DNA of 57,735 nt from a virus. The stretch is taken from positions 1 to 57,735 of IMG/VR virus record IMGVR_UViG_3300018083_000004, one strand, 5' to 3'. The notes under the pieces were generated by a model, which saw only the letters and a list, made by a program, of their open reading frames with translations, was not told where the DNA came from and made no database searches. The translations under genes were made by a program, and so were the position numbers. Of this stretch, positions 1-53,312 are shown piece after piece; position 1 is the stretch's first letter; each line of letters starts with the position of its first letter.

Positions 1-123
1 CGGACGCGGAGACGATTCACGGCATGCGGGAGAAGGCATGCGCATTCTGGTACGACCACGTAATGGCCAATGACCCACCGCCACCGATCCGACTGGAAGA
101 CGTCATACGCACCCTATTCCGAC
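1..123. repeat. Terminal direct repeat, left copy
   Basis: These 123 bases are identical to the last 123 bases of the window. The exonuclease reading frame continues through the repeat when the ends are joined, so the sequence is a circle of 57,612 bp read once plus the overlap. The overlap falls inside a coding gene and lacks any packaging-site look, so I read it as an assembly overlap of a circular or circularly permuted genome, not a true packaging repeat. Confidence 0.9.
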
Positions 124-4395: not shown

Positions 4396-4841
4396 CCGGA
4401 AGCGGCTATAATGAGACACTGACGCTCCATCAGGCAGCGGCGTATCTGCATATGCATCCGGAGACGCTGCGCGAACGCGCTGCCGCTAACATCGTGAAGG
4501 GGGCGAAGCCGGGAAGATCCTGGGTGTTCAGGCTAGAAGACCTGAACGCGTATCTCATTTCGCTGCAAGGGCCACGGGAGCCAGCGTGTCGCTCTATCGC
4601 GTCGGTGTCATCTGGTACGTCGATATCGGGATACGCGGACTGCCCCGACTTCGGGAATCAACTGGAACTCATGATCGGGGCGCGGCGCAGCAATACCACG
4701 ACCAAAGACGCGCGCAACTCTGGCGGCAGGCGAGGCTCGGCGAAAGTCCTGCCGTTCAAGCCACCTTCCGAGCCGCCGCCAAGCTCTGGACCGACGACCG
4801 GCCGCGGCAGAGGGAAGACCTCTACCGCCTCCGGTGGCTGA
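4392..4841 (+). CDS. Excisionase-like helix-turn-helix protein overlapping int
   Basis: The frame contains a MerR/HTH_17-type DNA-binding domain: LTLHQAAAYLHMHPETLRER followed by the wing G-R-S-W-V-F-R and L-E-D-L-N-A-Y-L. This is the fold of many phage excisionases and of DNA-bending partners of tyrosine integrases. I take the TTG at 4392 (AGGAA at 4378-4382) as start; ATG 4362 is an alternative. The frame stays open 256 bases into the integrase gene, giving a long low-complexity tail (Ser, Pro, Gly, Arg) that may not be functional. Position just before int fits Xis. Confidence 0.6.
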   Translation: MTGSGYNETLTLHQAAAYLHMHPETLRERAAANIVKGAKPGRSWVFRLEDLNAYLISLQGPREPACRSIASVSSGTSISGYADCPDFGNQLELMIGARRSNTTTKDARNSGGRRGSAKVLPFKPPSEPPPSSGPTTGRGRGKTSTASGG

Positions 4842-5626: not shown

Positions 5627-5701
5627 GGGCGGTTAGTTCAGTGGTAGAGAACTGTCCTCACACGGCAGGGGTCACTGGTTCGAGCCCAGTACCGCCCACC
5701 A
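5627..5701 (+). tRNA. tRNA-Val (anticodon CAC), with encoded CCA
   Basis: Cloverleaf of 72 nt plus an encoded CCA (5699-5701). The acceptor stem is a perfect 7 bp (GGGCGGT/ACCGCCC), the anticodon stem 5 bp with one G-U pair (CTGTC/GGCAG), the loop CTCACAC gives anticodon CAC (reads GUG), and the T stem is perfect (ACTGG/CCAGT). The D stem is weak: G10 faces A25 and T11 pairs with G24. The 3' half looks like a normal bacterial tRNA-Val while the D arm has drifted. Lying 57 bp after int, it is probably the attP core, with the 3' part identical to a host tRNA gene. Confidence 0.88.
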
Positions 5702-10300: not shown

Positions 10301-11849
10301 CAGAGACGATGCGCCCGCCAGCCCGCGTACCGGCGCGGGAAGGGTCGTGGATCTCGATCAAAGCCCCGGGATAGACCGACACACCATCAAGAGCGCATTG
10401 GAAACTCACGGTCTCGGTTTCCAGGCGCTCGGTATATAACATCCACAGGCCCAGTCTATGTGCCTGTCCGCGAGAGGTGCAACCGAAAGCGGTGATCGGC
10501 GTGCTGACTACGCCATACCGCGCTACGCCGGCTTGATCCTCGACGTACTCTATCTTCTGCCGGCCGAAATCCGCCGGATCGTTCCAGGCCACCAGTGTTA
10601 CCGTGTGCCGCGCCTTCTGGCTGCTGCCTTGGTAAGTGAAGTTGCCGTGAACGACATTGGCTTGGTTGAATTGATATATAGGATCGCCCGGATGGTCGCT
10701 GACCGTAGTCAGATGCACGCCGGTCCAGTACATCATGCCGCGGAAGATTGAGGCCAGATTCTGCAGCAGCGTGTAGGCTTCCTCGGCGGTTTGCAGATAG
10801 ATATTGCACGTCATGCGCGGCTCGTTCCCGCCGAAGCCGTCATTCACCGTCTCGTCGCAGTATTGCCCGATCGCGTAGAGCGCCCATTTATCGTTTAGTT
10901 GCTCTGGATTGAATTCTCCCAGACCGTAGCGCGGCGTGGTGGCCATGTCGTAATACACCCAGGCAGGGTTGTCGCTCCACGCTATCTTGAAGGTTCCATC
11001 CCAAGCCCCGCTATACACGCGCGTGATTGGATCATAGTTTGCTGGCACCTTGATGCGCAGCAACTTCCAGTCGTAGGCGCGGCGCGGGACGCTGGAAAGT
11101 TGCTTGGCGTCGAACTGCAAGGCCACCAGCGCCGAATTAGGGTAACGGAATTTGCCGTCTATGATCTCCGTGTAGGAACTCCACACCATGTTGTTGACCA
11201 TGGTGGCGCGCGTGGAATCCGCGGTCAGTTTGCGCACGCGTATATCCCACGGCCCGTTGCCGGTAAGCTGGATGCGATGCGAGCGTTGATACGGCGTAGT
11301 TACCTTCGCGCTAACGGTAGCCTGCAATTCCATCACGTACCCTCCGCCATTGTTCTGCAGATCGATGGCGTAGGACACGCTGGTGCCGTGTATGTCTCCG
11401 GTATTTACGTCACTGTTGGTTAGTTGCGGGAAAGACAAGGTAATACGCGCCGCTGTGACATCGGCATTGACCACCGTTTTGACTACTGGCGCGGCTGATC
11501 CAACCAACAGACCGACGTCGATCTCGGTCTCGATCGCCGGAAATCCGTTGATATAGGACTGAGACTGCGTGCCGTTGCGAGTTTGCAGCGTCACACCCTG
11601 AAAGTTGTAGCTTCCGTCCGGGTTCTGGATCGGCGTATCGTTCAGATACACGCATTTGAGCGGATTGGCAACATCTACCGGTCCTTCCACCTCGCCCTCG
11701 GAAATCAGATCCAACACGCGGGCCAGCTGCTGCGAACGAGCAGAATCAGGATCTTCAACCGGAGTGCGCTGCTGCGGCGCCGACTCGCCACCGCCGAACA
11801 GCCCGCCGCCCTTGGCGCCAACGATGATTTCTAGATCACGATAGCCCAT
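7386..11849 (-). CDS. J: Tail-tip/host-specificity protein J
   Basis: Central tail-tip protein (1487 aa) that closes the distal tail and carries receptor-binding domains; homologue of lambda gpJ. The N-terminus is diagnostic: a Gly-rich start, then ARVLDLISEGEVEGPVD and the K-C-V-Y-L-N-D-T-P-I-x-N-P-D-G segment. Later parts hold fibronectin-III-like segments (about 640-960) and a C-terminal receptor region rich in Ser/Thr/Ala. I start at ATG 11849, whose GGAGGA site is at 11861-11866; an in-frame ATG at 11903 lies inside gene I. It is preceded by the I homologue, matching lambda order. Confidence 0.93.
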   Translation of the reverse strand: MGYRDLEIIVGAKGGGLFGGGESAPQQRTPVEDPDSARSQQLARVLDLISEGEVEGPVDVANPLKCVYLNDTPIQNPDGSYNFQGVTLQTRNGTQSQSYINGFPAIETEIDVGLLVGSAAPVVKTVVNADVTAARITLSFPQLTNSDVNTGDIHGTSVSYAIDLQNNGGGYVMELQATVSAKVTTPYQRSHRIQLTGNGPWDIRVRKLTADSTRATMVNNMVWSSYTEIIDGKFRYPNSALVALQFDAKQLSSVPRRAYDWKLLRIKVPANYDPITRVYSGAWDGTFKIAWSDNPAWVYYDMATTPRYGLGEFNPEQLNDKWALYAIGQYCDETVNDGFGGNEPRMTCNIYLQTAEEAYTLLQNLASIFRGMMYWTGVHLTTVSDHPGDPIYQFNQANVVHGNFTYQGSSQKARHTVTLVAWNDPADFGRQKIEYVEDQAGVARYGVVSTPITAFGCTSRGQAHRLGLWMLYTERLETETVSFQCALDGVSVYPGALIEIHDPSRAGTRAGGRIVSATTTSVVIDAGTIIGDDAGALLTCVLPDGTLETRSITPTTGTTLVPTAPFSQAPLPTAIWIVSSVNLVPTKWRVVAVVEDAANLYSVTALSHDENKYAAVDTGVILQGPPTVYFPPREQLAPPTDITWTEITVATAKGIEQRLDVSWTAPTDAAQTVAGYILEWQFQYGIVYRTTQINGTLYELPSSPGSYVGRVYAVGKRGGISPAASSTYTVRDKAPIGQPVISGLELFGQDNDTIFDGPDAIFAWRYNAVVTSYDLGSEPQGASSGSMDPIFLDFEIRIYDVTSGAVVRVEHTTDPHWTYTLVENAHDGHGAPRRTFTIGVAMRDRYARVSSEARLTVSNPMPLAPSDVLIHDGFGMLNGSYTAFGGQDYVGVVIYISVNSGFTPDVSNEGWRGSDTDFVISGLAPQQPYFLRFASEDVFGVGAPGAAEYTGTPASSTQTASDLMAGMNEILSGTNAQDKLIFSTTAFAIQDPNDVTHFPLGVVDMGGGAFAVGINADVVINGDVSIANLTTGALASDVQMTLGGTIIIDGNGAISVYKGPGANQDYVLLTAGDIMFRKYIAALSSYVTYNHLRRMEFGTAASGSTVAIPGYWEQQPLITVNPAAMPVYKSGTMSAQDQSVVFGSTNVRQITGVANRWQFDVVAVLQLTANTGSQTMGASSGDTSSNAFDVATFTTPGNCLRITPNLRARSKRGNGSGQYFHRMYRWTLYWKTAGGPTWTGSQVSAWIDLSEVLDAFTAAGAVVNFPSAGTWDCRLGIETADKDGTLFGAVEYQYSNQTLTDSQARTIATVSVSGVNQNTVNAGGGGFPANPFDGSWEIYQIVYNYTYDLIVTSNFTDANGRYEGNMSASLSARNVLRDQIVYQTNSATFLPSKIGVGASYTYQGSFLAHSATPWSATVFAQSLRQVGAASATTSIRANATATLYVRKPASTSTTPVNTGVIDSYAFDLSGASVPLLTGSANWTAIGR

Positions 11850-11853
11850 GGCT

Positions 11854-12453
11854 CTAGAAGTCCTCCGCGAACAGACCGAACGAGATAGTCTGACTACCGG
11901 CAAAGACGCGCCCGTAACCGACCGGTACCGGATTGCCCTGGCCGACGGTGTTCACGGCGCCGTTGGCAAACGAGTAACTGGGTTGATTCTGCGTCGGCTC
12001 GGTGGTCTGAATCTTGGGTGGCTTGAACAGCAGCTGCGACACACCCATAAGCGCCAGACCCAATCCGACAGCGGCGATTGCTGAGGTTATGGTGGCCGCC
12101 CCGAACCCCAGCATGGCAGGCCCACCAATGAAACCTCCAATCGGACCAGCCAGAGCGATAAGAGCCACGCCGATGACGATGCCCCATACAGCGTTTTTCC
12201 CGCCGCATATCACGGGCACGATCTTAAGCACCTCCGGCCCCATCGGCTGTACCATGCGCTCAAGGTCGATGATCTGATCATCGAGCAACAGGCGAAAAGG
12301 CGCATCGCGTTGATCGAACATATAGCGCTCCCACTTGCGGCCGTAATTGGCCCGCAGGGCGCGCAGAGCCTCGCCGGGACTGTTCACGTCGTAGCGATGC
12401 ACGCGCCCGAATCGGCGTCCCAGATCGCCGTATAAACGGATCTCTCGCACCAT
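11854..12453 (-). CDS. I: Tail assembly protein I
   Basis: Lambda gpI homologue (199 aa), needed for tail-tip assembly. It shows the N-terminal beta-grasp-like domain (IRLYGDLGRRFGR ... SPGEALRAL), two central hydrophobic helices (about residues 88-140, with GPIGGFIGGPAMLG) and a C-terminal N-P-V-P-V-G-Y-G-R-V-F-x-G-S segment. Gene order K-I-J is conserved here. Confidence 0.92.
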   Translation of the reverse strand: MVREIRLYGDLGRRFGRVHRYDVNSPGEALRALRANYGRKWERYMFDQRDAPFRLLLDDQIIDLERMVQPMGPEVLKIVPVICGGKNAVWGIVIGVALIALAGPIGGFIGGPAMLGFGAATITSAIAAVGLGLALMGVSQLLFKPPKIQTTEPTQNQPSYSFANGAVNTVGQGNPVPVGYGRVFAGSQTISFGLFAEDF

Positions 12454-40142: not shown

Positions 40143-41513
40143 CTATTTTCCAATTTCGCCGAAACGCTTTGCCAACGCGAGCACCGCGTTGCGTGTGTCG
40201 CCGGTGCCGGGCGTCTTCGGTTCGCTCGGCTGATTTGCGCCAGGCGCTGGTGCTGGCGGATTCTTGACGCGGTCGATATTCGCCTGCGTCTGCTCTCGCA
40301 TGAGATCCAGCGGCATCATGTTCACCTGCACCAGATAGTCGTCGCCGCCCTTGCCGATCGGGTTCATGTCCTGCAACTCGCGAATGTCGTTTGCGGAGAG
40401 CCAGCCGTTTTGCCTGCCGATCGCGAAAGCCTCATGCTGAGACTTGATATCGGCGCGCAGGAGTGAGGCGAAGTTGAGTTTGGTGTAATACACCCCGCGT
40501 TGCTGGCGACCGAAAAACTTGATGTCGCATTCCAGTTCTATCCTCCGGGCCCAAGGCAACAAAGTCTGCTGCACGAACTCCAGGGACTGTTGCTCAATGT
40601 TGTTGTTTGTTGATCGATCTAGCTCGAACACGCGATGCGGCGGCACGCCGAACCAGCGACAGATTTCGGTGACGCCAAACTTTCTCGATTCCAGAAATTG
40701 CGCATCCTCTGGAGGCACTGCAATCTGCTTCCACTGCATGCCCTGATCGATGTACGTGGTCTGCCCAGCTCGCCCAGGGCCGCGGTATTTGTCGTTGAAC
40801 TCCTTCAGCATGGCGTCAACCGCTTCCGGAGATAGGGCCTTGCCCACCGGCGCCTCGATCACCCCGCCCAGGTGCGCGCCGTTGCCGAAGAAAGCTGCGC
40901 CGAACTGCTCCATGGCCAGCCCCAACCCAATGGTCTCGCGCGCTAGCCCGATTACCGAATAGCCCATAACTCCGTCACCAAGGCCATGTAGGTGCAAGAT
41001 ATCGGCGGGCGCGAATTCGGTAACCTCCCTGGTGCGATTACTGACGCGATACATCAACTCATCGAATTCATTTCGAAATGTGCTTACGCGCCACGGCTCA
41101 ATCGGCCAAAGATTGACCGGTTCTCCGCGGTTGTTGCGCTCGATCTCGGCGAAGGCGTTTCCGCGCAGGATCGCATACTGCAGCATCGTCTCCCAGAAAC
41201 TTACGGCGTTGATCTCCGGGTTCGGCTGCATGGAAATCAGCCAGTCGGCCGCATGCGTCGGCATCTTTATTCGGCTCGCCCCATCCTGCCGATAGACTCT
41301 GAACGGCATGCACGCGATCGGCTCTACGATAGTTCGCACCGCCGCGTAGACGGTGCTGAGCGTCATTGCGTTATCTTCGATGACATGCACGCCACTAACA
41401 TTGCGCGCGTAACGATGTTGCGCATGGCGACCGCCCGCCACATCGCGTGCCGTCTGCGCCACATTGCGCACGCTCTGCCACCAGCCGCTAAGTATCGTCA
41501 TGGGATTGCGCAT
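40143..41513 (-). CDS. Portal protein (HK97 type)
   Basis: 456 aa. Hallmarks: T-V-Y-A-A-V-R-T-I-V-E-P-I-A near residue 55, G-N-A-F-A-E-I-E-R, P-A-D-I-L-H-L-H-G, G-Y-S-V-I-G-L-A-R, and W-F-G-V-P-P-H-R-V. It forms the dodecameric DNA gate. It overlaps the large terminase gene by 26 bases. Confidence 0.93.
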   Translation of the reverse strand: MRNPMTILSGWWQSVRNVAQTARDVAGGRHAQHRYARNVSGVHVIEDNAMTLSTVYAAVRTIVEPIACMPFRVYRQDGASRIKMPTHAADWLISMQPNPEINAVSFWETMLQYAILRGNAFAEIERNNRGEPVNLWPIEPWRVSTFRNEFDELMYRVSNRTREVTEFAPADILHLHGLGDGVMGYSVIGLARETIGLGLAMEQFGAAFFGNGAHLGGVIEAPVGKALSPEAVDAMLKEFNDKYRGPGRAGQTTYIDQGMQWKQIAVPPEDAQFLESRKFGVTEICRWFGVPPHRVFELDRSTNNNIEQQSLEFVQQTLLPWARRIELECDIKFFGRQQRGVYYTKLNFASLLRADIKSQHEAFAIGRQNGWLSANDIRELQDMNPIGKGGDDYLVQVNMMPLDLMREQTQANIDRVKNPPAPAPGANQPSEPKTPGTGDTRNAVLALAKRFGEIGK

Positions 41514-43440
41514 GTTGTTGTTGCTCCTTGGCCAAACGCTGCTGGGCTTTCGCTTCCCAATAGGAACGAATCGGTGTTAGCGGCATGGGTGGTTGTGCCG
41601 GAGTCTCGTCTGCATCGGGCTCGACGATCTCACCGGCAGGCTCCGGTGCCTGATCGCCATGGCGCGCGACTAACTGTTCGTAGTAGCTTGGCGCGTCCGG
41701 GCGGGAGAGCAACGCTCGGGACATCGCCATGATCAGGGCGATGCTCGCATCGATTTTGTTTTCGACGCGCTCTTTCCGGGGATAGATGTTGTCCTTTACA
41801 TCGCGATGGCAAACCACGTTGCCGATCATCCAACCGAACACCGGATCGCCGTTGTGGTGAAATCGTCTCGGCCGCGCAGCGATCAGCTCCTCGATCTCTT
41901 TCATCGGTGGGGAGAAATGCAGAATCAGCGGCCTCACCTCCACCATCGGCAAGCCTTCGTCGATCATCTCGCTCGCGAACTGCTGCAACTGGGCCGGATC
42001 GAAACCAATCTCGCCCAATTCAAAGCGTTGCAGATCGCCATCCACGTCCGACGCTCCAATCAACTCCTCGCGCACGTCGGCGATGTCGGTGACGTTGCCG
42101 TTGGACACCCGGATCCAGCCATCACGCTCCCAGCCGGCTAGTTGTTCGTTGCCCTTCGCTTCGATCAGCGTGCGATTCGAGTAGTAGCGTCCAAACGCGT
42201 AGTAGTGAGTCTGCAGCGCGCCGCCTTCGCCGGTAGTCAACTCACGGGTGAACACCTTCACCTTGGCGAACAAGTCCTTTTTGAAAGCAGCGTCTAGCCC
42301 GACGATGCAGCGTTCACCATGAAAGTCTGATTCCTTCAGCGTCGGATCCGCGCACGCTTCCCATTCGAGCATGTTCATCCATCCGGCATCCGCTCCGACC
42401 CATACGTTGCAACGCTTGGTGAGAAACTCGCCGAGTGCGGCGGCCTGCGTAGCGGCCATGCGCGTCATGCGCCGCATGTCCTCCAAGTCGACCGAGATGC
42501 CTAGATTGGGATTCGCCTTGATCCAGTTCGTCTCGTTGAACGGGTCTTTTTCTTCCCCGGCATCCAGCGTATAGATGATGCCCCAGGTGCTGTCATCCTC
42601 GGCGCAGTTGCCTTCGACCTTGTAACCCAGACCGCCGTGCGCCAACAGCGTCGCATTGAGAATCTTGGTGATATACAGCCGCACGTCGTAACACACGCCG
42701 GAACGATCCGATCCGGCTGTGGTGATCTTCCAGATCAGCGGTTGCGCGCGCGAACCCAGGCTGCTATCGATGACGTCATGGACGCGGCGTGTCTTGTGAG
42801 CGTGGAGCTCGTCAATTGCAGCGAATGACGTATTGAGCCCGTCAAGCGTACTGCCTTCGGCCGAAAGAGGAACCATCTTCGAGCCGCTGAGGTCGATCGC
42901 GAGGGAATTCTCGTAGACGCGTACTCCGAACTGCCGGCGAAATTCCGGCTCCAATTGCGCCATCTGCTTGGCGATGTTGAAAACGATCTTGGCCTGCTCG
43001 CGCGTGGTGGCTGCGGCGTAGACTTCGGCCCCCATCTCGTTATCGATGGTCAATGCCGCCAGGCTGAGCGCGCCCAGGATGCTGGTCTTCGCGTTCTTGC
43101 GGCCTACGTCCAAGTAGGCAGTGCGAAAGCGGCGCATGCCGGTTTTGCGATGCACCCATCCGTAGACACAACACAGACAGAAACATTGCCACGGCTCGAG
43201 CACGATATGCATGCCGGCCCATTGCGCGCCCTTCACATGCGGCAGCAATTCCACGAACGCGCACCGTTGCTCTGCCTTGTCCGCATCGAAACGATAGGGC
43301 CAACTTTTATCGGTCTTGCTGCGTTCCAGATCGTCGATCTGGCGCTGACACGCGGCCTTCACCCATTTGCAGGCTAGGATCTTTCCGCTCAGTACGTCGC
43401 GCGCGTATCGCTCGGCCGTCTTGACGTGCGGCGTATTCAT
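41488..43440 (-). CDS. terL: Large terminase subunit (HK97/Terminase_1 type)
   Basis: 650 aa DNA-packaging motor. The ATPase domain has a Walker-A-like V-G-R-K-N-A-K-T-S (about residues 111-119) and Walker B A-A-I-D-E-L-H. The nuclease domain begins V-G-L-D-A-A-F-K-K-D (about 380). The C-terminal 90 residues are Pro/Glu/Gln-rich. Its start overlaps the spanin stop, an unusual location since lysis genes normally follow the tail operon. Confidence 0.93.
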   Translation of the reverse strand: MNTPHVKTAERYARDVLSGKILACKWVKAACQRQIDDLERSKTDKSWPYRFDADKAEQRCAFVELLPHVKGAQWAGMHIVLEPWQCFCLCCVYGWVHRKTGMRRFRTAYLDVGRKNAKTSILGALSLAALTIDNEMGAEVYAAATTREQAKIVFNIAKQMAQLEPEFRRQFGVRVYENSLAIDLSGSKMVPLSAEGSTLDGLNTSFAAIDELHAHKTRRVHDVIDSSLGSRAQPLIWKITTAGSDRSGVCYDVRLYITKILNATLLAHGGLGYKVEGNCAEDDSTWGIIYTLDAGEEKDPFNETNWIKANPNLGISVDLEDMRRMTRMAATQAAALGEFLTKRCNVWVGADAGWMNMLEWEACADPTLKESDFHGERCIVGLDAAFKKDLFAKVKVFTRELTTGEGGALQTHYYAFGRYYSNRTLIEAKGNEQLAGWERDGWIRVSNGNVTDIADVREELIGASDVDGDLQRFELGEIGFDPAQLQQFASEMIDEGLPMVEVRPLILHFSPPMKEIEELIAARPRRFHHNGDPVFGWMIGNVVCHRDVKDNIYPRKERVENKIDASIALIMAMSRALLSRPDAPSYYEQLVARHGDQAPEPAGEIVEPDADETPAQPPMPLTPIRSYWEAKAQQRLAKEQQQHAQSHDDT

Positions 43441-43952
43441 TTAATCCCGCGCACGTACTCCTGGCAGCTCGCTAGTTTTTGGGCGCACTCGTCGGCTGTT
43501 GCCAGGATGTCGATGAGCCCGTCTCGCCGATCGCCTTGTACGCATCTAGGAAGCTCCCCGGTATCGGCAGGGGCTGCATCCACGGTTCGTTGATCGTCGA
43601 CGGTGGCTGCGGGCACGGGGCCGCTACCGCTATGGGCTTTGGCGGCGCTGGCGCGCAGGCCGTCATAGCGAACGCGCAGAGCAGAATAGCTGGTGTTGAA
43701 CGCACTGGTGGTCTCCTGCACCTTCCGGGCCCCAGCGGCTTCGATCTGCTGGTTTTCCTCCAGGCGCTTAATAATCTCTGCCGCAGCGGCACTCTGATAG
43801 TCAGCCAAGTCTTGCTTGGCTTTGGCCGTCTGCTCGAGCGCGGCCGACGTCTCATGCTGGGCATGCCATACGCGCACCTGTTGCGCTCCGCCTATCAGCA
43901 GAGCCAACACCGACATGCCGGCGAACACGTAAACGCTCAGGGGCAGCGGCAC
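43437..43952 (-). CDS. Rz: Rz-like inner-membrane spanin
   Basis: 171 aa: an N-terminal transmembrane anchor (L-S-V-Y-V-F-A-G-M-S-V-L-A-L-L-I, residues 5-20), a long periplasmic coiled coil (about 25-110) and a Cys-bearing C-terminal segment. A lipoprotein gene lies within it in another frame, as in lambda. It joins with Rz1 to fuse inner and outer membranes at lysis. Start overlaps the holin stop. Confidence 0.85.
   Translation of the reverse strand: MPLPLSVYVFAGMSVLALLIGGAQQVRVWHAQHETSAALEQTAKAKQDLADYQSAAAAEIIKRLEENQQIEAAGARKVQETTSAFNTSYSALRVRYDGLRASAAKAHSGSGPVPAATVDDQRTVDAAPADTGELPRCVQGDRRDGLIDILATADECAQKLASCQEYVRGIK
43472..43705 (-). CDS. Rz1: Rz1-like outer-membrane spanin lipoprotein (nested)
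   Basis: 77 aa from a GTG at 43705, fully inside Rz. The signal peptide (T-P-A-I-L-L-C-A-F) leads to lipobox A-M-T-A-C (Cys at residue 17), then a proline-rich segment (A-P-A-P-P-K-P ... C-P-Q-P-P), the hallmark of Rz1. An ATG farther upstream in the frame would add a basic, non-signal sequence. Confidence 0.75.
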   Translation of the reverse strand: MRSTPAILLCAFAMTACAPAPPKPIAVAAPCPQPPSTINEPWMQPLPIPGSFLDAYKAIGETGSSTSWQQPTSAPKN

Positions 43953-44311
43953 TATTTGCTCTTGGTGGTCTTGGTGCTGACGCTGGTGGCGTCGGTCGAC
44001 GTCGTGGAGTCCGTCTCAGCGGCCCGGCGCCCCTCGTCGTAGGTCTTGTAGATGAACCCCATCAGGGCGCTTGCCGGCACGGTCAGGGCCGCTATCACCA
44101 AGCCGAGCTCGGCACCGCTCTTGCCCGGCAAGCTGGCGTAGCCCTTCGCCCAGCGGTACACGTCGATCATCATCCACAGCACGGCGATGATCATGGCGCG
44201 CCGGATGATCAGGCGCTGGTCGATGAAGTCCAGCAGGCCGCCGAGCGCTGCATCGGTGAGTGTGCGCAGGCTGGTTATCAGAGCGAGCAGGGTTTTCATG
44301 GGGCTTGACAA
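43952..44311 (-). CDS. Holin-like membrane protein (119 aa)
   Basis: Two hydrophobic helices are predicted (I-I-R-R-A-M-I-I-A-V-L-W-M-M-I around 36-52 and L-G-L-V-I-A-A-L-T-V-P-A-S-A-L-M-G around 69-88), with a charged Ser/Thr/Lys-rich C-terminal tail. Its place immediately before Rz/Rz1 strongly suggests a holin. ATG is taken at 44311; ATG 44299 is possible. Confidence 0.7.
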   Translation of the reverse strand: MSSPMKTLLALITSLRTLTDAALGGLLDFIDQRLIIRRAMIIAVLWMMIDVYRWAKGYASLPGKSGAELGLVIAALTVPASALMGFIYKTYDEGRRAAETDSTTSTDATSVSTKTTKSK

Positions 44312-44333
44312 GTTAGCCTTGTAAGGCTAGAGT
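44305..44333 (+). promoter_or_regulatory. Promoter with immunity-type operator, antisense to late operon
   Basis: Perfect -35 TTGACA (44305-44310), 17-bp spacer and -10 TAGAGT (44328-44333). The spacer carries an exact inverted repeat TAGCC-N6-GGCTA (44314-44329), whose last two bases overlap the -10. The same promoter/operator layout exists at pL (53041-53070) and pR (52248-52276). It drives the plus-strand pair 44342-44781 and probably is silent under the prophage repressor. Confidence 0.8.
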
Positions 44334-44341
44334 GTTTGCAA

Positions 44342-44509
44342 ATGATTACTAGACGAATAGCCTCCTACCTGCTAGCCGCCCTTGGCGTGTTGCCTGCCAT
44401 GATTGCGATCAGGCTGTTGCAGGCCGGAGATCTGAGCCTGGCCGCCTGGCTGGGCGTTCTGGCCGCTGCGTTCTGGGTGGCCGCGTTCAAGGTTGACAGA
44501 CGCGGCTAA
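44342..44509 (+). CDS. Small membrane protein, antisense pair gene 1 (55 aa)
   Basis: MITRRIASYLLAALGV...: two hydrophobic helices (residues about 8-24 and 31-49) separated by a short charged turn. ATG 44342 lies 8-9 bases after the -10 hexamer, so the mRNA probably begins at or next to the start codon (leaderless). Encoded opposite to all neighbours. No family recognised. Confidence 0.65.
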   Translation: MITRRIASYLLAALGVLPAMIAIRLLQAGDLSLAAWLGVLAAAFWVAAFKVDRRG

Positions 44510-44514
44510 AGACG

Positions 44515-44781
44515 ATGGTCGCCTTCTTCAACGTCTGCGGCCTCGTCGCCCTGCTCTGCGCTCTCGCCCTGTTCTGGCAGCCGAACTTGAGCGCTGCCAC
44601 CGCAGGCATGTTCATCTGCACGGCCGTGTTCTGGATAGGCGCTGCTTTGCTCCACGAACTGCAACTGCAACGCAAGATGCAATCGATTACGGCGCAACTG
44701 CTCGAGCGCAGCATCAAGTCGAGCGCCACTCCCGTCCTGCAACAGCAAGTCTTATCGGTCCGGGCTAAGCCCCTCTCTTGA
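44515..44781 (+). CDS. Small membrane protein, antisense pair gene 2 (88 aa)
   Basis: Begins 5 bases after gene 1. Two transmembrane helices (residues about 2-19 and 27-48) are followed by an amphipathic, cytoplasmic helical tail (Q-L-Q-R-K-M-Q-S-I-T-A-Q-L-L-E-R). It overlaps the 3' end of terS (opposite strand) by 17 bases. No homologue recognised; topology is like small phage exclusion or lysis-timing proteins. Confidence 0.6.
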   Translation: MVAFFNVCGLVALLCALALFWQPNLSAATAGMFICTAVFWIGAALLHELQLQRKMQSITAQLLERSIKSSATPVLQQQVLSVRAKPLS

Positions 44782-45277
44782 ACTGGCCCCAGCCTGGCTT
44801 AGCGGATTCCGCCCCACGCAATTGCGCCGGTTCCATAGTTGCGCCAGGCACTCGAGTGCGCGAACTCGGAGTTAACCCAAACTCCACGCACAGCTTGGCG
44901 TACATCTCTTGCGCTCGATTCGATACCGCGAGCCATGGCGATTGCATCGGGTAACCCTTCGGCGATTTCACGAACAGACCGCTACCGCCTCCGGCTTGAT
45001 CAGCCATCGCCTTGATCTGGTTTTCCGCCTCAAGATATCTGCCCCAGGTGGTACAGACCATCGCGAGAGCTCCGCGGTCGACATGAGCGATGATGCCGCC
45101 TAGCAGTTTGGTCAGTCGGTTCCATTCCTTGCGCGCATCCCCCTTCAAGTGACGCGGACATGAAATGTGTTCCGCTGGAGGCGGTCGGAAGTCGTCGATC
45201 GGTATCGGACGTTTACCCGGGTTGTTCCTGATGATCTTTAGTGTTGTCGGTGTCGGCTTGCGCCCGCGCGTTGCCAT
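44765..45277 (-). CDS. terS: Small terminase subunit (P27 family)
   Basis: 170 aa. The start (M-A-T-R-G-R-K-P-T-P-T-x-L-K) and C-P-R-H-L-K-G-D-A-R-K-E-W-N-R, then D-R-G-A-L-A, are diagnostic for P27-like small terminases. ATG 45277 follows GAGGC and lies inside the methyltransferase C-terminus (65 bp overlap). Recognises packaging DNA with the large subunit. Confidence 0.9.
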   Translation of the reverse strand: MATRGRKPTPTTLKIIRNNPGKRPIPIDDFRPPPAEHISCPRHLKGDARKEWNRLTKLLGGIIAHVDRGALAMVCTTWGRYLEAENQIKAMADQAGGGSGLFVKSPKGYPMQSPWLAVSNRAQEMYAKLCVEFGLTPSSRTRVPGATMEPAQLRGAESAKPGWGQFKRGA

Positions 45278-46574
45278 CTGTCGCCTCTGTTAGTTTTCGG
45301 GCTATCGAGATTTCTTCAAAAATCCGGCCATCGCCCTCGAGAACAGCCTTGTGCCCGGTGAAGTTCTGCCAGCGCTGAACGGCCACGTCGACATAAACCG
45401 GCAGCAGTTCCTGCGCATAACAGATGCGGCCGGTCTGTTCGCAGGCGATCACCGTGGTGCCGCTTCCAAGGAATGGGTCATAGACCGCTTGGCCCGGATT
45501 AGAATTGTTTTCGACCGGACGGCGCATGCACTCGACGGGCTTTTGGGTGCTGTGGCCGGTTTCGGATTTCATGTGCTCGATTTGCCAGAGCGTCGTTTGC
45601 GACCGGTCGCCGGACCAATGCCCAGTTGCGCCTTTGCGCACGGCATACCAGCATGGCTCGTGCTGCCAGTGATAATCGCCGCGGCTGATTACAAAGCGCG
45701 GTTTGGCCCACACTATCTGGCAGCGGATAACAAAGCCGACCGCCTCCAGCGATTGCTGAACAATGGCGGCATGCCGACCGCCATGCCAGCAATAGGCAAC
45801 CTGACCCGGAAACAGCGCCCACGCCTCGCGCCAGTCAGAGCGGTTATCGTTGCCAACCCGTCCTATGGCTCTAACGGTTAGACCGTTGGGCATATATGCA
45901 TGATTTCGCCAGTCTGGATCGTAGTCGACCCCATACGGCGGATCCGTGACCATGAGGTTCGGTTTGACGCCAGCGAGCAGCCGCTCCACATCCTCAGTCT
46001 TGGTGCTATCCCCGCACGCCACCCGATGCCGCCCACAAAGCCACACGTCGCCCGTAGCGCTTACCGGGCGCGCCGGGATAGGCGGAGCGTCGTCGGGGTC
46101 CGTTAAACCGCCTGTCGGGCCAACAAGGCGATCCAATTCTGAAGATCCAAAGCCGATTAGGCCGAGATTTGCTCCAACACCCTGCAACTGCGTGAGCTCG
46201 TCACTTAGCAGAGGTAAGTCCCAGTCTGCATTTAACGACAGCTTGTTGTCCGCCAGGATATAGGCTCGGCGCTGAGCTTGCGTCCAGCCGGCGCAATCGA
46301 TGACCGGCGCGGTTCCGAGCGGTATGCTCTCCCCCCCAGGGAGCTTGATGCCCATGCCTTCCGCGTACAGCAATACGGCCGCTAAAACCCGCCCATGACC
46401 GGCGACAATGCCGTCACCGTCAGCCAGAATCGGGTTGGTCCAGCCCCATTCCAGCATCGCGTCCGCGATTTGACGCACTTGCTCCCGACTATGCCTGCGC
46501 GCGTTGCGCGCATATGGAACTAGTTCTGCTATCGGCCGAAAGACCGCCTGCACGCCTGCCGTCGCGTTACCCAC
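45213..46574 (-). CDS. ParB-domain DNA methyltransferase (N4/N6 type)
   Basis: About 453 aa. The N-terminal ParB/Srx-like domain reads P-I-A-E-L-V-P-Y-A-R-N-A-R-x-H-S, then V-A-G-H-G-R. The methyltransferase part has the catalytic D-P-P-Y-G early and the SAM motif F-L-G-S-G-T-T late (beta-class order), with S-T-Q-K-P-V-E-C-M. Common upstream of phage terminases. It likely modifies adenine or cytosine amino groups, perhaps to avoid host restriction. GTG 46574 lies behind AAGGAGG, although the spacing is short; the frame remains open to 46754. Confidence 0.88.
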   Translation of the reverse strand: MGNATAGVQAVFRPIAELVPYARNARRHSREQVRQIADAMLEWGWTNPILADGDGIVAGHGRVLAAVLLYAEGMGIKLPGGESIPLGTAPVIDCAGWTQAQRRAYILADNKLSLNADWDLPLLSDELTQLQGVGANLGLIGFGSSELDRLVGPTGGLTDPDDAPPIPARPVSATGDVWLCGRHRVACGDSTKTEDVERLLAGVKPNLMVTDPPYGVDYDPDWRNHAYMPNGLTVRAIGRVGNDNRSDWREAWALFPGQVAYCWHGGRHAAIVQQSLEAVGFVIRCQIVWAKPRFVISRGDYHWQHEPCWYAVRKGATGHWSGDRSQTTLWQIEHMKSETGHSTQKPVECMRRPVENNSNPGQAVYDPFLGSGTTVIACEQTGRICYAQELLPVYVDVAVQRWQNFTGHKAVLEGDGRIFEEISIARKLTEATDGNARAQADTDNTKDHQEQPG

Positions 46575-46772
46575 ATACCTCCTTGTATACCCTGCCGCCT
46601 TGAAATTCGCGGAAAAATAAATTTTAGCGCGCGCACGCATTCTCGTCGCCAGTCTGCAGAGATCCGGACCCCCCATCCCCCGTCCTACACCGCGCATGGC
46701 GCAGTCGACAAAGGCACGCGAGTACATGTGCATAGTCTCAGCGCTGCCACGCACAGCGCCTTATCTAGTCAG

Positions 46773-46919
46773 TCATAGGTGGGTGATATGACCCGCCAAC
46801 ATAGAAGCCGTGAGACATGCCAGCCCTGCGGCCTGCAGGTTAACGCGACCACCAGACACACCAACAGCAGACAGTATGAACAGGATCAAGGCGGCGATCA
46901 GAAAGCCTAGTGCGATCAT
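46773..46919 (-). CDS. Small membrane protein (48 aa)
   Basis: ATG 46919 with AGGAGAG upstream. The first half is a long hydrophobic helix (M-I-A-L-G-F-L-I-A-A-L-I-L-F-I-L) and residues about 27-42 a second weaker one. Short enough to be missed by standard gene finding. Between it and the methyltransferase start (46575-46772) nothing else is evident. Confidence 0.55.
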   Translation of the reverse strand: MIALGFLIAALILFILSAVGVSGGRVNLQAAGLACLTASMLAGHITHL

Positions 46920-46931
46920 GACAGTGCTCTC

Positions 46932-47045
46932 CTATGCGATGCTCAGTAATCGAACCATCATGGCTCCACACTGCAAGCACTTTTTAGTGCCGTCTGGGTT
47001 GTCGGCTCCGCAGTTATTGCACTTCATTGTCATGCGATAGCGCAT
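46932..47045 (-). CDS. Mini zinc-ribbon protein (37 aa)
   Basis: ATG 47045 with AAGGAG upstream. M-K-C-N-N-C-G-A-D-N-P-D-G-T-K-K-C-L-Q-C-G: two CxxC knuckles 12 residues apart, an almost minimal zinc ribbon. Its SD and tight packing with the HNH gene support expression. Confidence 0.65.
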   Translation of the reverse strand: MRYRMTMKCNNCGADNPDGTKKCLQCGAMMVRLLSIA

Positions 47046-47049
47046 GGTT

Positions 47050-47421
47050 TTAACTCCTTGAAGCATTTCCGAATCCGTGATCGAAGGTCGCAGTCTTTGC
47101 GTCATGGCAGGCCTTTGCAAGCGATTGATGGTTCTCTGGATCCCAGAACAACATTTCGTCACCATGATGCGGCACGATGTGATCGACTATTGAGGCAGCC
47201 ACTAACTTGCCCGCATGCTTCTCACACATGCAGAACGGATGCGCACGCAGGAACGCTATGCGGTACTTGCGCCACGCAGGCCCATACAGCCGATAGGTAG
47301 GCTTGTCCCTGCGTTCGTTGACAGCCCTGCGTATGGTTCTGTCATGATCACTGCATCTGCCTTGGTGGACCAGCTTAGGGCAGGCAGGATAAGTGCAGGG
47401 GCGTAATGCAGCGATACTCAC
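47050..47421 (-). CDS. HNH endonuclease near terminase (HK97 gp74-like)
   Basis: 123 aa. A zinc-knuckle start (C-T-Y-P-A-C-P ... H-Q-G-R-C-S-D-H), then R-L-Y-G-P-A-W-R-K-Y-R, P-F-C-M-C, V-D-H-I-V-P-H-H-G-D-E and N-H-Q-S-L-A-K-A-C-H-D-A-K. These are the HNH active-site signatures of the packaging-associated family; such proteins stimulate terminase activity in related phages. Its start overlaps the upstream stop. Confidence 0.9.
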   Translation of the reverse strand: MSIAALRPCTYPACPKLVHQGRCSDHDRTIRRAVNERRDKPTYRLYGPAWRKYRIAFLRAHPFCMCEKHAGKLVAASIVDHIVPHHGDEMLFWDPENHQSLAKACHDAKTATFDHGFGNASRS

Positions 47422-47711
47422 GCAGCTACTGCTGTTTCCACAAACGTGGCAGTGACCTTAGCCATGACCCCAGCATTCGACAGATCGGACGCGATGCTCG
47501 ACTCGATAAACATCGCGATCAACGGATGCGCATTCACGGCGACAGCAGCAGCCAGTTGAGCGGATCTCTGCGCCAGTTCGAGCGAAAGATCGTCTATGTC
47601 GTCCGCATTGTCTCGGATGTGCTGCGCCAGATCGCAGATCAGCACAATGGCGCTTTGCTGGACACCAAAGGTGCCCTGAACCTTGACGATGAGATCGTCC
47701 AGCGCCTGCAT
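47418..47711 (-). CDS. Small helical protein with F-x-E-S tail (97 aa)
   Basis: Residues 1-62 are a paralogue of the protein encoded at 47778-48104 (M-Q-x-L-D-D-L-x-x-K-V ... A-Q-L-A-A-A-V-A-x-N). Residues 63-97 instead contain two F-x-E-S/T repeats (A-M-F-I-E-S-S-I-A-S-D, A-T-F-V-E-T-A-V-A-A), the same unit as the 638-aa repeat protein. An A-rich run (a terminator) precedes its start. Confidence 0.6.
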   Translation of the reverse strand: MQALDDLIVKVQGTFGVQQSAIVLICDLAQHIRDNADDIDDLSLELAQRSAQLAAAVAVNAHPLIAMFIESSIASDLSNAGVMAKVTATFVETAVAA

Positions 47712-47760
47712 AAAAAATTCCGCTCGCCAGTGGTCTGGGTGACTTAAGCGAACGGAATTT
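47712..47760 (-). terminator. Terminator before the F-x-E-S-tailed gene
   Basis: Inverted repeat of 13-base arms (47748-47760 and 47715-47727, one mismatch) ending in a T run (47712-47717) directly in front of ATG 47711. Confidence 0.7.
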
Positions 47761-47777
47761 AAGGGGAGGAGTTCGGT

Positions 47778-48104
47778 TTATGCCGCGGGAGTATTGGCGG
47801 CAACGGCAGCTGCAAGCTTGGCAGATTCCGCGCTGAGCGAATCAGCGATCGCCTGCACCTGTGCAGGATTGCCAGCCGCCGCGGTGAGCTGTGCAGACAG
47901 GCCGTTAAGCAGCGCGATGGCGCTTTCCTCGACGGTATTGATCTCGGTCACTTTCGCTTGCAGATCGTCCAGCTCTTGCATGATGTGGGCTCCTAGGCTC
48001 GTAAAGGCTGCGCTGTTGGCGCTGGAGAGCGTCGCGACGGCAGTCAGAATCGCATCAAGTTTCGCCTCGACCGTATCCAGTCGCAGGAAAATATCGTGCT
48101 CCAT
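47778..48104 (-). CDS. Helical coiled-coil protein (108 aa)
   Basis: ATG 48104 (MEHDIFLRLDTVEAKLD). Alanine-rich helices with two internal similar blocks; the C-terminal half matches its neighbour 47418-47711. Close to many small phage proteins with M-Q-E-L-D-D-L repeats. No role known. Confidence 0.6.
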   Translation of the reverse strand: MEHDIFLRLDTVEAKLDAILTAVATLSSANSAAFTSLGAHIMQELDDLQAKVTEINTVEESAIALLNGLSAQLTAAAGNPAQVQAIADSLSAESAKLAAAVAANTPAA

Positions 48105-48340
48105 CAGGACGACGCTGGCGCATCGCTCCCACTCGCATCGCCTTCCTGGGACTCGAGCCGCAGCGCCCATTCCTGAACCTGCTGTGCTGCTTCCTGCTCG
48201 CTGATGCCGTAGTTCTCGGCGACTTGGCTGGTCAACGTTCGTTGGTCGGAACTGGGGGTGGCATCGGCCGGCAGGCCGAAATGATCGCGGGTGATCGGCC
48301 AGATGCGATCCCAGTTTGCTTCGATGTCAGCCCAGCGCAT
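48104..48340 (-). CDS. CsbD-like small protein (78 aa)
   Basis: M-R-W-A-D-I-E-A-N-W-D-R-I-W-P ... F-G-L ... T-L-T-S-Q-V-A-E-N-Y-G-I-S-E-Q-E-A-A-Q-Q-V-Q-E-W. This resembles the stress-associated CsbD family (I-E-G-N-W-x-Q-x-K ... Y-G-I-x-x-x-E-A-x-x-x-V-x-x-W) with divergent first helix. Function in phage unknown. Confidence 0.55.
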   Translation of the reverse strand: MRWADIEANWDRIWPITRDHFGLPADATPSSDQRTLTSQVAENYGISEQEAAQQVQEWALRLESQEGDASGSDAPASS

Positions 48341-48354
48341 TTTGTCGGTTTTAC

Positions 48355-48555
48355 CTAGCTGTAATCGGGGTAGATGATCTTGCGCACAGTCGGAAACTTC
48401 AGGGGGGCACTTAGCATCGCGGCACGACTGCGCTTGCGACGCGCCGCAGTCTTGGGGTTGAAATCCAAGCGGAGCCCAAGAGCTAACTCGTGGTTTTCCC
48501 GCGCAATTTGCGCAGTCAGCTTCCTTCGCTGCTTAGACAAAATCGCGTTTTCCAA
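48355..48555 (-). CDS. First late-operon small basic protein (66 aa)
   Basis: TTG start at 48555 and no clear ribosome-binding site. Arginine/lysine-rich (N-P-K-T-A-A-R-R-K-R-S-R-A-A), suggesting nucleic-acid binding. About 50 bases downstream of the predicted late transcription start. Confidence 0.5.
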   Translation of the reverse strand: MENAILSKQRRKLTAQIARENHELALGLRLDFNPKTAARRKRSRAAMLSAPLKFPTVRKIIYPDYS

Positions 48556-48613
48556 TTAGAGATCAGCGACATCCGGCTAACCTGTAGAATTTATTTTTCA
48601 TGTTTCTAGGGCG

Positions 48614-48642
48614 AATTTAGGCACTTTTCCTACAAGTGTCAA
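48614..48642 (-). promoter_or_regulatory. Late promoter candidate
   Basis: Minus-strand TTGACA (48637-48642), 17-base spacer and TAAATT (48614-48619). It lies between the Q-position gene and all packaging and structural genes, the standard site of a late promoter. An imperfect operator-like repeat (AAGCC-N6-GGCTA, 48651-48666) sits just upstream, but by chance about one or two such near-matches are expected in this genome. Confidence 0.75.
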
Positions 48643-48663
48643 GGGTTTTTAAGCCGGGTCTGG

Positions 48664-49188
48664 CTAGCCGACCAGTCCGCTCTCCCCGAATTCACGGGCC
48701 AACTGCTCGTCGGTGCGCCGGTGTAGCTCGTTCACCGAATCCCAAACTCGGAGCCCGTACTTTTCGACCGTTTTCGGGTTGATGGCGAGCTGCTCGGCGA
48801 TCGAGCGATAGGTTGGCCGGTTGGCGGTGCTGAACAGAAACGAACGCTTCACCAGCAGCAGGATCAGCCGCCTGGACGTGATGCCGGTGCCGATCACTCG
48901 CGGGATGACGAAATCGACGATGCGATGTACCTCGTTCAACCGATGCGGTCCGTGCCGATACCAGCACTCAACGCACGCTCGATCAACCGGCCGGAGGTGG
49001 TGATCGACATGAGCCCTGATCATTGCCGCCTGCACGTGCCATTCCGTGGGGCTGAGATCGTGGATCGAGTACACCGCCCCCTTAAGCAACCGACCGAGCT
49101 GCGAGCGCGCAGTCACCGGAAAATACTCGATCTCGTAGGCGAATCGCAGCGCGTGATCAACGGTGCGAAACAGCGGAGTGTCAAGCAT
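48664..49188 (-). CDS. Q-position late-gene regulator (174 aa)
   Basis: ATG 49188 (MLDTPLFRTVDHALRFAYEIE). The last 70 residues contain a helix-turn-helix-like sequence (Y-R-S-I-A-E-Q-L-A-I-N-P-K-T-V-E-K-Y), like sigma-region-4 or Q-type regulators. Its place immediately upstream of the late promoter argues for control of late transcription. I did not recognise an exact family, so the function is inferred from place and fold. Confidence 0.65.
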   Translation of the reverse strand: MLDTPLFRTVDHALRFAYEIEYFPVTARSQLGRLLKGAVYSIHDLSPTEWHVQAAMIRAHVDHHLRPVDRACVECWYRHGPHRLNEVHRIVDFVIPRVIGTGITSRRLILLLVKRSFLFSTANRPTYRSIAEQLAINPKTVEKYGLRVWDSVNELHRRTDEQLAREFGESGLVG

Positions 49189-50503: not shown

Positions 50504-51175
50504 TTATTTCCCGGTTTTGAATTTTTGTTCGAGTGCTCGGGCGATTGCGACGGCATCGCGTCCGGTCTTGACTGGAGAGGGAGCCTGGTTTTGATTCGAT
50601 TCAACTTCACTTCGATTCGATTCTCTTCGATTCAACTTCACTTCACTTCTCTTCACTTCAGCAAGCGGGCGCGTAGCGTTCGCTGTGCGTTCGCGTAGCG
50701 TTTTTTTGGCAAGTCCTTGTATATTTTCATTAGTCGAAATATCGACTATCGGCATAGCGCTAGCTAGGCGTTCGATAGGCGTTCGCTGCGCGTCAGCATC
50801 GCGTTCGCGTAGCGTTTTTTCTGCAACTGCTTGAATCTTTTCGGCGTCATCCCATGGTGATCCGCATACCCTTCGTTTGACATGCCGTAGAATCTGTCTA
50901 AATCGCGGAACGTGGATGTGCCGCTTGTCGTGCGAGTTGTAAACTCGAATGAGATCGCAACCGACCAAAGTTTCGAGCACTGCGGATACCTTGGCGTCGG
51001 TATCGAGGCCGTAGGCGCTCCAGAGCCGGCGGAGCCGGGGAGGGCTAGCCTCCATGTTTCCGACATCGTCTATCGACAGCAGCAGGACGATGTAGCAAAC
51101 GCGTGCAGTGTTGTCGTGCAGTTCGATCCAGCGATCCGAGTCGAGCAGCGAGTCACGGATGATGCGGTTGGGCAT
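50504..51175 (-). CDS. O-like replication initiator with internal origin candidate (223 aa)
   Basis: N-terminal winged-helix pattern (I-I-R-D-S-L-L-D-S-D-R-W, A-R-V-C-Y-I-V-L-L-L-S-I-D-D-V-G-N-M) typical of phage initiators. The C-terminal half is low complexity: it includes two K-T-L-R-E-R copies and a Lys/Arg/Ser/Asn/Gln-rich tract that result from repetitive DNA. This is the lambda-O layout with the origin inside the gene. No helicase-loader or helicase is seen beside it, so host DnaB recruitment is presumably direct. Confidence 0.75.
   Translation of the reverse strand: MPNRIIRDSLLDSDRWIELHDNTARVCYIVLLLSIDDVGNMEASPPRLRRLWSAYGLDTDAKVSAVLETLVGCDLIRVYNSHDKRHIHVPRFRQILRHVKRRVCGSPWDDAEKIQAVAEKTLRERDADAQRTPIERLASAMPIVDISTNENIQGLAKKTLRERTANATRPLAEVKRSEVKLNRRESNRSEVESNQNQAPSPVKTGRDAVAIARALEQKFKTGK
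50593..50659. repeat. Pyrimidine-rich direct repeats in initiator gene
   Basis: Three copies beginning GATTCRA/GATTCGATTC followed by CTTCACTTC or CTCTTC units: 50593-50613, 50614-50628 and 50629-50659. Candidate iterons of the replication origin. Confidence 0.65.
50687..50820. other. Structured origin-candidate segment
   Basis: Two exact 20-base repeats (50687-50706 and 50801-50820, GCGTTCGCGTAGCG plus six T) flank an AT-richer stretch with a perfect inverted repeat TAGTCGA-N4-TCGACTA (50731-50748). Together with 50593-50659 it looks like an iteron-type origin. Confidence 0.6.
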
Positions 51176-51988: not shown

Positions 51989-52240
51989 CTAGGCAGCGAC
52001 CCGTTTCTGTCTGCCCGCTCGCTTCTTCTCGATCGAGCGGAAATAGTCGTACAACTTTTGGGCCGTAGGTAGCGACGGATCCTGATGCACGCCCTGAACA
52101 TACTTGACCAGCGTCCAATACGGCACGCCGGACTCGTTGGCCACGACGGTCAGCTGACGGCCTTGGCGGGCGATCTCCAGGCATTCCTTCACGTAGTCCA
52201 GGCGCACCCGGACGTACTCGATCATGGTTTTTTCAGTCAT
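51989..52240 (-). CDS. Cro-like HTH regulator (83 aa)
   Basis: First gene of the leftward (pR-like) operon. Helix-turn-helix pattern: T-V-V-A-N-E-S-G-V-P-Y-W-T-L-V-K-Y-V-Q-G. The C-terminus is basic. ATG 52240 lies 8 bases past the -10 hexamer, so translation is probably leaderless; ATG 52225 is an alternative. Likely reads the same operator as the repressor encoded divergently. Confidence 0.75.
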   Translation of the reverse strand: MTEKTMIEYVRVRLDYVKECLEIARQGRQLTVVANESGVPYWTLVKYVQGVHQDPSLPTAQKLYDYFRSIEKKRAGRQKRVAA

Positions 52241-52247
52241 GGAACAA

Positions 52248-52276
52248 TTATTAGCCGAACCGTGCTAAGCACGCAA
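52248..52276 (-). promoter_or_regulatory. pR-like promoter with operator
   Basis: Minus-strand -35 TTGCGT (52271-52276), 17-base spacer and -10 TAATAA (52248-52253). The spacer holds the operator TAGC(A)-N6-GGCTA (52252-52267), whose TA overlaps the -10. This is the same arrangement as at 44305-44333 and 53041-53070. Confidence 0.75.
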
Positions 52277-52285
52277 GTGGAATTT

Positions 52286-52301
52286 TCGCAGCACCTGGCT
52301 A
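52286..52301 (+). promoter_or_regulatory. Possible second operator in the CI/Cro gap
   Basis: TCGCA-N6-GGCTA, an imperfect operator half-match 34 bp from the first. It lies upstream of a TAGAGT hexamer (52313-52318), a candidate -10 for the repressor gene, whose ATG at 52328 is only 9 bases farther on. Confidence 0.4.
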
Positions 52302-52327: not shown

Positions 52328-52747
52328 ATGAACGAAAAGAGCTATCAGAAAAGCCGTAAGGCCCTGGCCGACAACCTCAACGAGCTGATCGGGGGTAAAG
52401 GATTGAGCGTCAACGGCGAAGCGCACCGCCGCAAAATTCCGCAGCGCAGCCTGGAAAATCTCACCAACCTTGACGTGGACCCGCGTTTGAGCACAATAGC
52501 TGGCGTGGCTCACGCCTTCGGGCTCGAGCCGTGGCAAGCGCTGCTACCCCATGCGGAGATCGAAACCAGAAAGCGCTGCATGGATTGGCTGCGACTATGG
52601 AATAGCGCTACCGCGCCGACGAGGCGCGTGATGGAAATGGCCCTGCGTCTGGCACTAGAAGAAGAACAGGCCGATCAAAAACAATACGCAGACGCTGAGG
52701 AAGTCGCGCATGGTGAGCGACGCCGGGAGGACCGACGCACTAGTTGA
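52328..52747 (+). CDS. CI-like repressor without peptidase domain (139 aa)
   Basis: N-terminal HTH region with L-S-V-N-G-E-A-H-R-R-K-I-P-Q-R-S-L-E-N-L, followed by a helical C-terminus (R-M-M-like, A-L-R-L-A-L-E-E-E-Q). It lacks the S24 self-cleaving domain, so induction would need another mechanism than RecA-driven cleavage. It is encoded in the same direction as the pL operon and away from the Cro-like gene, as lambda cI is. Confidence 0.7.
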   Translation: MNEKSYQKSRKALADNLNELIGGKGLSVNGEAHRRKIPQRSLENLTNLDVDPRLSTIAGVAHAFGLEPWQALLPHAEIETRKRCMDWLRLWNSATAPTRRVMEMALRLALEEEQADQKQYADAEEVAHGERRREDRRTS

Positions 52748-53026: not shown

Positions 53027-53042
53027 TAGCACGATTGTGCTT
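53027..53042 (+). promoter_or_regulatory. Upstream operator at pL
   Basis: TAGCA-N6-TGCTT, one mismatch from a perfect inverted repeat of the TAGCA half-site. Its centre is 24 bp from the main pL operator, on the other side of the -35 edge. Confidence 0.55.
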
Positions 53043-53070
53043 GACATGTCTAGCCGGGTGCGGCTAGACT
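53041..53070 (+). promoter_or_regulatory. pL-like early promoter with operator
   Basis: -35 TTGACA (53041-53046), 18-base spacer, -10 TAGACT (53065-53070). The spacer contains the exact operator TAGCC-N6-GGCTA (53051-53066). Drives the plus-strand early operon including exo, recT and int. Confidence 0.82.
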
Positions 53071-53105: not shown

Positions 53106-53312
53106 TTGGCAACCAAAAAACTGAACGTGCTGGAGCTGCGCAAAGGCCTTGCCCTCAATCAATCCGACTTCTGGGGACGCGTGCACGTCACCCAGTCTGG
53201 CGGCTCTCGCTTCGAGCGTGGCGACCGCGCGGTACCGAAGCCGGTGCGCGCGCTTTTGGGCGCGGTCTATTTGGGCGAAAAGGTGCGGCCGTACAAGGCG
53301 AGGCGCAAGTGA
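53106..53312 (+). CDS. Small HTH protein, first gene of pL operon (68 aa)
   Basis: TTG start 53106 with strong GGAGGAG at 53092-53098. L-N-V-L-E-L-R-K-G-L-A-L-N-Q-S-D-F-W-G-R-V-H-V-T-Q-S-G-G-S-R-F-E is a XRE-like helix-turn-helix. The C-terminus is basic. It could regulate pL or act as an antirepressor-like factor. Confidence 0.7.
   Translation: MATKKLNVLELRKGLALNQSDFWGRVHVTQSGGSRFERGDRAVPKPVRALLGAVYLGEKVRPYKARRK

Follow-up and report, generated by a model that had tools for sequence, protein, structure and literature searches.

A candidate CI/Cro-type operator in a promoter set backward within the late operon of a temperate phage

Why do two small genes face backward in the late operon of a temperate phage, and why does the promoter in front of them carry an inverted repeat, TAGCC-N6-GGCTA, that also occurs at the early promoters of the same genome? 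The window (the whole stretch of 57,735 nucleotides that was analyzed) consists of a 57,612-bp circle and a 123-bp terminal repeat. By its gene content, which includes integrase, excisionase-like (xis-like), and RecE/RecT-like genes, this is a temperate, tailed phage. Its main landmarks are as follows.

24-1318, RecE/RecT-like
4173-4841, excisionase-like
4586-5569, integrase
7386-11903, J-like tail protein
41488-43440, minus strand, large terminase subunit (TerL)
44765-45277, minus strand, small terminase subunit (TerS), convergent with A2 (below) and overlapping it by 17 bp
45213-46754, fused ParB-like/methyltransferase

A tRNA-Val (CAC) gene at 5627-5701, 58 bp past the integrase gene, is a likely attachment site.

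According to coding statistics, genes lie on the minus strand throughout the ~46 kb from 5.8 to 52.2 kb, except for a pair at 44336-44781 and one doubtful ORF of 49 codons. The two members of the pair, A1 and A2, have the codon-position patterns of real genes and form the only convincing plus-strand island in this interval. They sit between the small terminase gene and a holin-like gene, behind a predicted promoter that we call pA.

43437-43952, minus strand, Rz-like spanin (weak profile match)
43952-44299, minus strand, holin-like late gene with two transmembrane segments, divergent from pA (assigned on topology and position only)
44302-44306, plus strand, GGCTT, the right half of an O2-like upstream site, overlapping the -35 element
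44305-44333, plus strand, pA, a sigma-70-type promoter (TTGACA-17-TAGAGT) with an operator in its spacer; the block matches pL of the related phage L004
44314-44329, putative operator OA, TAGCCTTGTAAGGCTA, with perfect arms of 7 bp; the best-scoring site of the window on a matrix built from relatives only
44342-44509, plus strand, A1, 55 aa, a two-helix membrane hairpin
44515-44781, plus strand, A2, 88 aa, two hydrophobic helices and a C-terminal tail

The ATG of A1 lies 8 bases past the -10 element and ~2 nt after the predicted transcription start, so the mRNA would be nearly leaderless; A2 follows 5 bp further on. Structure models show two-helix hairpins only, the A2 model, made from a single sequence, being of low confidence (pLDDT 70). 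A2 has a weak match, below the cut-off, to holin superfamily III. We found no homologues of A1 or A2 in family libraries or in defence and phage sets, and none of A2 in IMG/VR or phage records.

In a scan of the whole circle the exact repeat occurs only at 44314-44329 and 53051-53066, and it is absent from each of 100 dinucleotide shuffles. The original prediction had named these two copies together with a one-change copy at 52252, and all three are borne out; its expected number of exact matches, 0.055, is close to our analytic value of 0.067 per circle. Allowing up to one change gives six sites against 1.0 expected, a count that 0 of 100 shuffles reach, with the one-change copies at 52252, 48651, 51032, and 23667. 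At up to two mismatches the 25 copies of the repeat (17.9 expected) are near background, and the claim of a shared operator therefore rests on the strong sites. The combined pattern TTGACA-N2..5-repeat, expected 8.5e-5 times per circle, is observed twice. There are three promoters of the form TTGACA-16..18-TAnnnT (up to two mismatches) in the circle, and two of them, at 44305 and 53041, hold the repeat inside the spacer. The -10 element of each starts with the final TA of the repeat, as had been foreseen; the TA overlap is also present at 52252, although the -35 element there is weak. A terminator or RNA element at 44314 was considered and rejected, because neither strand has a T-run after the site and Rfam gives no match.

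The other copies lie around a set of genes with the layout of a lysis-lysogeny switch.

51989-52240, minus strand, Cro-like HTH regulator that opens the pR operon
52252-52267, minus strand, pR operator TAGCACGGTTCGGCTA, differing from the exact repeat by one change and lying over the -10 element
52286-52301, possible second pR/pRM site, a weak one with two changes
52328-52747, plus strand, CI-like HTH repressor of 139 aa, located between pR and pL
53027-53042, second, upstream pL operator TAGCACGATTGTGCTT (TAGCA-N6-TGCTT), overlapping the -35 element as in relatives
53041-53070, plus strand, pL promoter, TTGACA-18-TAGACT
53051-53066, pL operator TAGCCGGGTGCGGCTA
53106-53312, plus strand, RsaL-like HTH protein that opens the pL operon (PF22495, E 9.6e-20)

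The site at 53027 does not appear in the original prediction. Together with the 53051 site it gives pL a tandem spacing in the range of 23-24 bp, while the second site at pR is weak and 34 bp away. On the minus strand, pR has a weak -35 element (TTGCGT) and a -10 element that can be read as TAATAA or AATAAT, and it is the weakest of the three candidate operator sites. The 51989 product matches phrog_9425 (E 2.9e-11) and, just below the cut-off of that family, HTH_3 (E 0.0005); its gene is divergent from 52328. The 139-aa CI-like protein has no peptidase-domain match. The predicted mRNA starts of the Cro-like gene (52240), A1 (44342), and possibly the CI-like gene (52328) coincide with the start codon or lie only a few bases from it; leaderless mRNAs may thus be frequent here.

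Relatives of this switch were collected by scanning IMG/VR with the DNA pattern TTGACA-N2..5-repeat, which returned 48 loci; they were not picked by their proteins. In five of them (L004, L037, L038, L045, and L063) a CI-like gene, with a Cro-like gene beside it, has a repeat-bearing promoter on either side. Four of the five have two tandem pairs of the repeat, its copies 23-24 bp apart, one pair at each promoter; L037 has a degenerate pR. The Cro-like protein is the outward gene at pR, and tblastn with the 51989 product matches L004, L037, L045, and L063 at 38-51% identity over the matched stretches. The relatives' pL reads TAGCC-N6-GGCTTGACA-N3..4-TAGCC-N6-GGCTA, with O2 over the -35 element and O1 over the -10 element; counting the 53027 site, pL of the window follows the same plan. 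The 52328 product is linked to the relatives' CI proteins by hmmsearch (6.6e-11) and hhalign (probability 94.8), with a profile that included CF418P1, and it is a distant homologue also of the CI-like gene in that Achromobacter phage, which adjoins a Cro-like gene of the same family. The anatomy of the relatives thus supports taking 53051 as pL, 52252 as the weaker pR, 52328 as CI-like, and 51989 as Cro-like, in agreement with the earlier proposal, which names the last two as regulators, and it supports TAGCC-N6-GGCTA as the probable operator of this immunity family.

The sequence of the operator varies from phage to phage. Ten loci were obtained by a search with a smaller Cro alignment, and some have the same palindrome and some an altered one; L111, which has a Cro homologue, carries TATCC..GGATA at the equivalent place, and PAJU2 and CF418P1, with Cro-like relatives, have different operators. 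Because of this variation, a match at 44314 to the window's own version is informative. Searches of IMG/VR with single proteins gave no relatives of A2, CI, or Cro. A promoter-plus-operator scan of genome contigs gave 40 loci from many phyla, none with a CI or Cro homologue by tblastn, which look like background, and a contig scan with a TerL alignment gave nothing.

How well does the distal site fit this family? We built a scoring matrix from 21 sites of six relatives, leaving out the sites of the window. The position-matrix scan that had been suggested for checking the shared operator puts 44314 at the top of the window with 17.6 bits, ahead of 53051 (12.8) and 52252 (1.3), and the distal site is thus closer to the relatives' operator than is the site at pL of the window. 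The pA block, GGCTTGACA-AGT-TAGCC-N6-GGCTAGAGT, is nearly identical to pL of L004, GGCTTGACA-TGT-TAGCC-N6-GGCTAGAGT, and nearer to it than is pL of the window. Accordingly, pA looks like a pL-type promoter that has kept the right half of O2; the left half is missing, and the start of the holin-like gene occupies its place. We infer that pA was recruited from a promoter of this type. The half-sites are not alike in their inner bases (TAGCCT at pA against TAGCCG and TAGCAC at pL and pR), so affinity may differ as well. None of the six relatives with the TAGCC-N6-GGCTA operator has a convincing distal copy, several of the records searched being fragments. Of the original prediction, then, the part that placed an immunity operator in pL and pR recurs in phages found by DNA pattern and the distal copy does not recur convincingly (0 of 6), so conservation is unusable as an argument for pA.

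We judge it highly improbable that the three palindromes are similar by chance and have no common regulator. The near-background count at up to two mismatches would fit coincidence, as would the 3 of 100 shuffles that reach the 17.6 bits of the 44314 site. Against this stand the exact sites, which no shuffle reproduces, their register in the promoters, and an operator common to the family. The sequence argues strongly that the A1-A2 pair is under the same repressor as pL and pR.

Could that regulator be a protein other than CI or Cro? The RsaL-like gene at 53106 follows pL directly and has a strong domain match, which would suit a reader of the operator that autoregulates pL. However, Burkholderia phage JC1 and Pseudomonas phage Itty13 have RsaL-like genes without the repeat upstream of them, and tblastn found no RsaL-like gene at the loci of the repeat-bearing relatives, which carry the CI/Cro pair. 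The RsaL-like protein was rejected as the repeat binder on these grounds, and we regard that reading as very improbable. The RsaL-like gene of JC1 occupies the Cro position.

We turn to the gene pair itself. Aval, VarioGold, and L011 (the last with a TerL of 68% identity and without the A1-A2 pair) have TerS directly beside TerL, so the block between the terminase genes of the window is an insertion. An annotated holin gene is found a short distance upstream of the large terminase gene in BgVeeders33, on the same strand as that gene; lysis genes at this place are thus not unique, and the reversed pair is the unusual part. Small membrane genes that run against the late operon around them are a typical form of moron, and A1-A2 fit this pattern. 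That A2 has no relatives among those searched and that the block is an insertion would also suit an ordinary lysogenic-conversion moron with a promoter of its own, expressed in the lysogen, the repeat being coincidental or bound by a host factor. We consider this unlikely, since the repeat is the probable operator of the immunity family to which this phage belongs, is placed in the register seen at pL, and has the very low chance expectation given above.

The direction of pA raises a further alternative. It is aimed at the late operon, the A2 and small terminase genes overlap, and there is no plus-strand terminator-like site from 44333 to 48620, so RNA from pA may run antisense into the terminase gene. 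On this basis pA might serve chiefly as an antisense gate, with early transcription toward the small terminase gene colliding with or silencing late transcription until Cro shuts pA. This, too, we think unlikely. The coding statistics of A1 and A2 are those of real genes, which argues that the RNA is not merely antisense, and it has no Rfam match. A version combining both roles would have pA as a timing gate, on only when CI and Cro are both low, with a transcript that yields two early membrane proteins and also obstructs or silences terminase and late transcription until Cro closes pA; we rate it as rather improbable.

The reading we favor, and consider likely, is that the operator of a CI/Cro-type switch is present in pL (two sites), pR (one imperfect site), and pA, and that the pair is co-regulated with the lysis-lysogeny decision. 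A1 and A2 would then most likely be early lytic genes that are silent in the lysogen. The site, its promoter register, the family-wide operator, and the gene island are read from the sequence; binding, timing, and the function of the two proteins we infer, as follows. In the lysogen, CI-like 52328 on OA would block RNA polymerase at pA, keeping A1 and A2 silent along with the other lytic genes. Upon infection or induction pA would be immediate-early, firing alongside pL and pR and producing the nearly leaderless A1-A2 mRNA. As Cro-like 51989 accumulates, pA would be shut, at about the time when late transcription on the opposite strand must cross it. The most likely place of action of A1 and A2 is the inner membrane, in the early phase of lytic growth, where they might exclude competing phages or affect the timing of lysis. 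In Fc02, two overlapping genes with exclusion activity adjoin a switch, and the lytic transcript covers one of them (PMC9936078).

On the favored reading, a cassette has been brought under the phage's own lysis-lysogeny switch by way of a pL-type promoter, as opposed to a constitutive moron. This predicts when the two membrane proteins are expressed and so narrows their possible function. The operator family TAGCC-N6-GGCTA, with its sites and proteins, moreover offers a way to read immunity in phages that have not been cultured.

The arrangement has much in common with lambda-type cI/cro switches (lambda and 434; immB of N15 and phiKO2, PMC4997575): a CI-like gene between two outward early promoters, a Cro-like gene at the head of the pR operon, operators that lie over the early promoters (the one at pR of the window being imperfect), a replication-initiation gene downstream of pR, and recombination and integration genes downstream of pL. 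It differs in having tandem pairs or single sites where lambda-type operators have three, in its 139-aa CI-like protein without a peptidase-domain match, and in the extra operator-promoter ~9 kb away. Operators outside the immunity region are already known; what is new here is a single pL-type promoter set backward in a late operon. In P1, the C1 repressor has 22 dispersed operators outside the immunity region (PMC8546580). In our phage, too, a single lysogeny repressor may act at promoters beyond the immunity locus, as the sequence match at 44314 suggests. The P1 operators are, however, asymmetric 17-mers (n = 22), whereas here a palindrome is found at three promoters. The L5-type phages (Cluster A mycobacteriophages) have 20-30 repressor sites, mostly stoperators (PMC6550527). 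Like the candidate site at 44314, these lie far from the repressor gene; those of L5 are 13-bp sites, 20-30 per genome and mostly outside promoters, where they block elongation, in contrast to the sites inside promoters seen here. The many-sites feature of P1 and L5 is absent from the window, with three promoters only and no further exact site.

Among the IMG/VR phages, L004, L037, L038, L045, and L063 share with the window the operator over both early promoters and the places of the CI-like and Cro-like genes, but not, in the records searched, a convincing distal site. Another kind of phage, L031/G019, carries this palindrome between the -35 and -10 elements of at least two promoters that are separated by 7 kb (1298-1330 and 8365-8410). 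It has no Cro or CI homologue by tblastn, and neither of the two promoters is directed at late genes within the extent of the locus; it is a possible dispersed-operator phage.

There is one further candidate site in the window.

48651-48666, minus strand, possible fourth site TAGCCAGACCCGGCTT, one change, 8 bp upstream of the -35 element of the promoter at 48642-48614

That promoter (minus strand) is the third strong promoter of the circle, and the repeat copy is outside its spacer, centered near -52. The stretch 48614-48666 directly follows a 197-aa gene whose match to sigma-70 region 4 is sub-threshold, a Q position with a pR'-like promoter. In L006, two near-identical promoters (11363-11389 and 11692-11716), 329 bp apart and with the identical 16-mer TAGCCGTTTCGGGCTA, stand before successive genes. 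Finally, a repetitive stretch at 50590-50830 of the window, with the motifs TTCGATTC, TTCACTTC, and TTCGCGTAGCGTT, lies within the replication-initiation-like gene.
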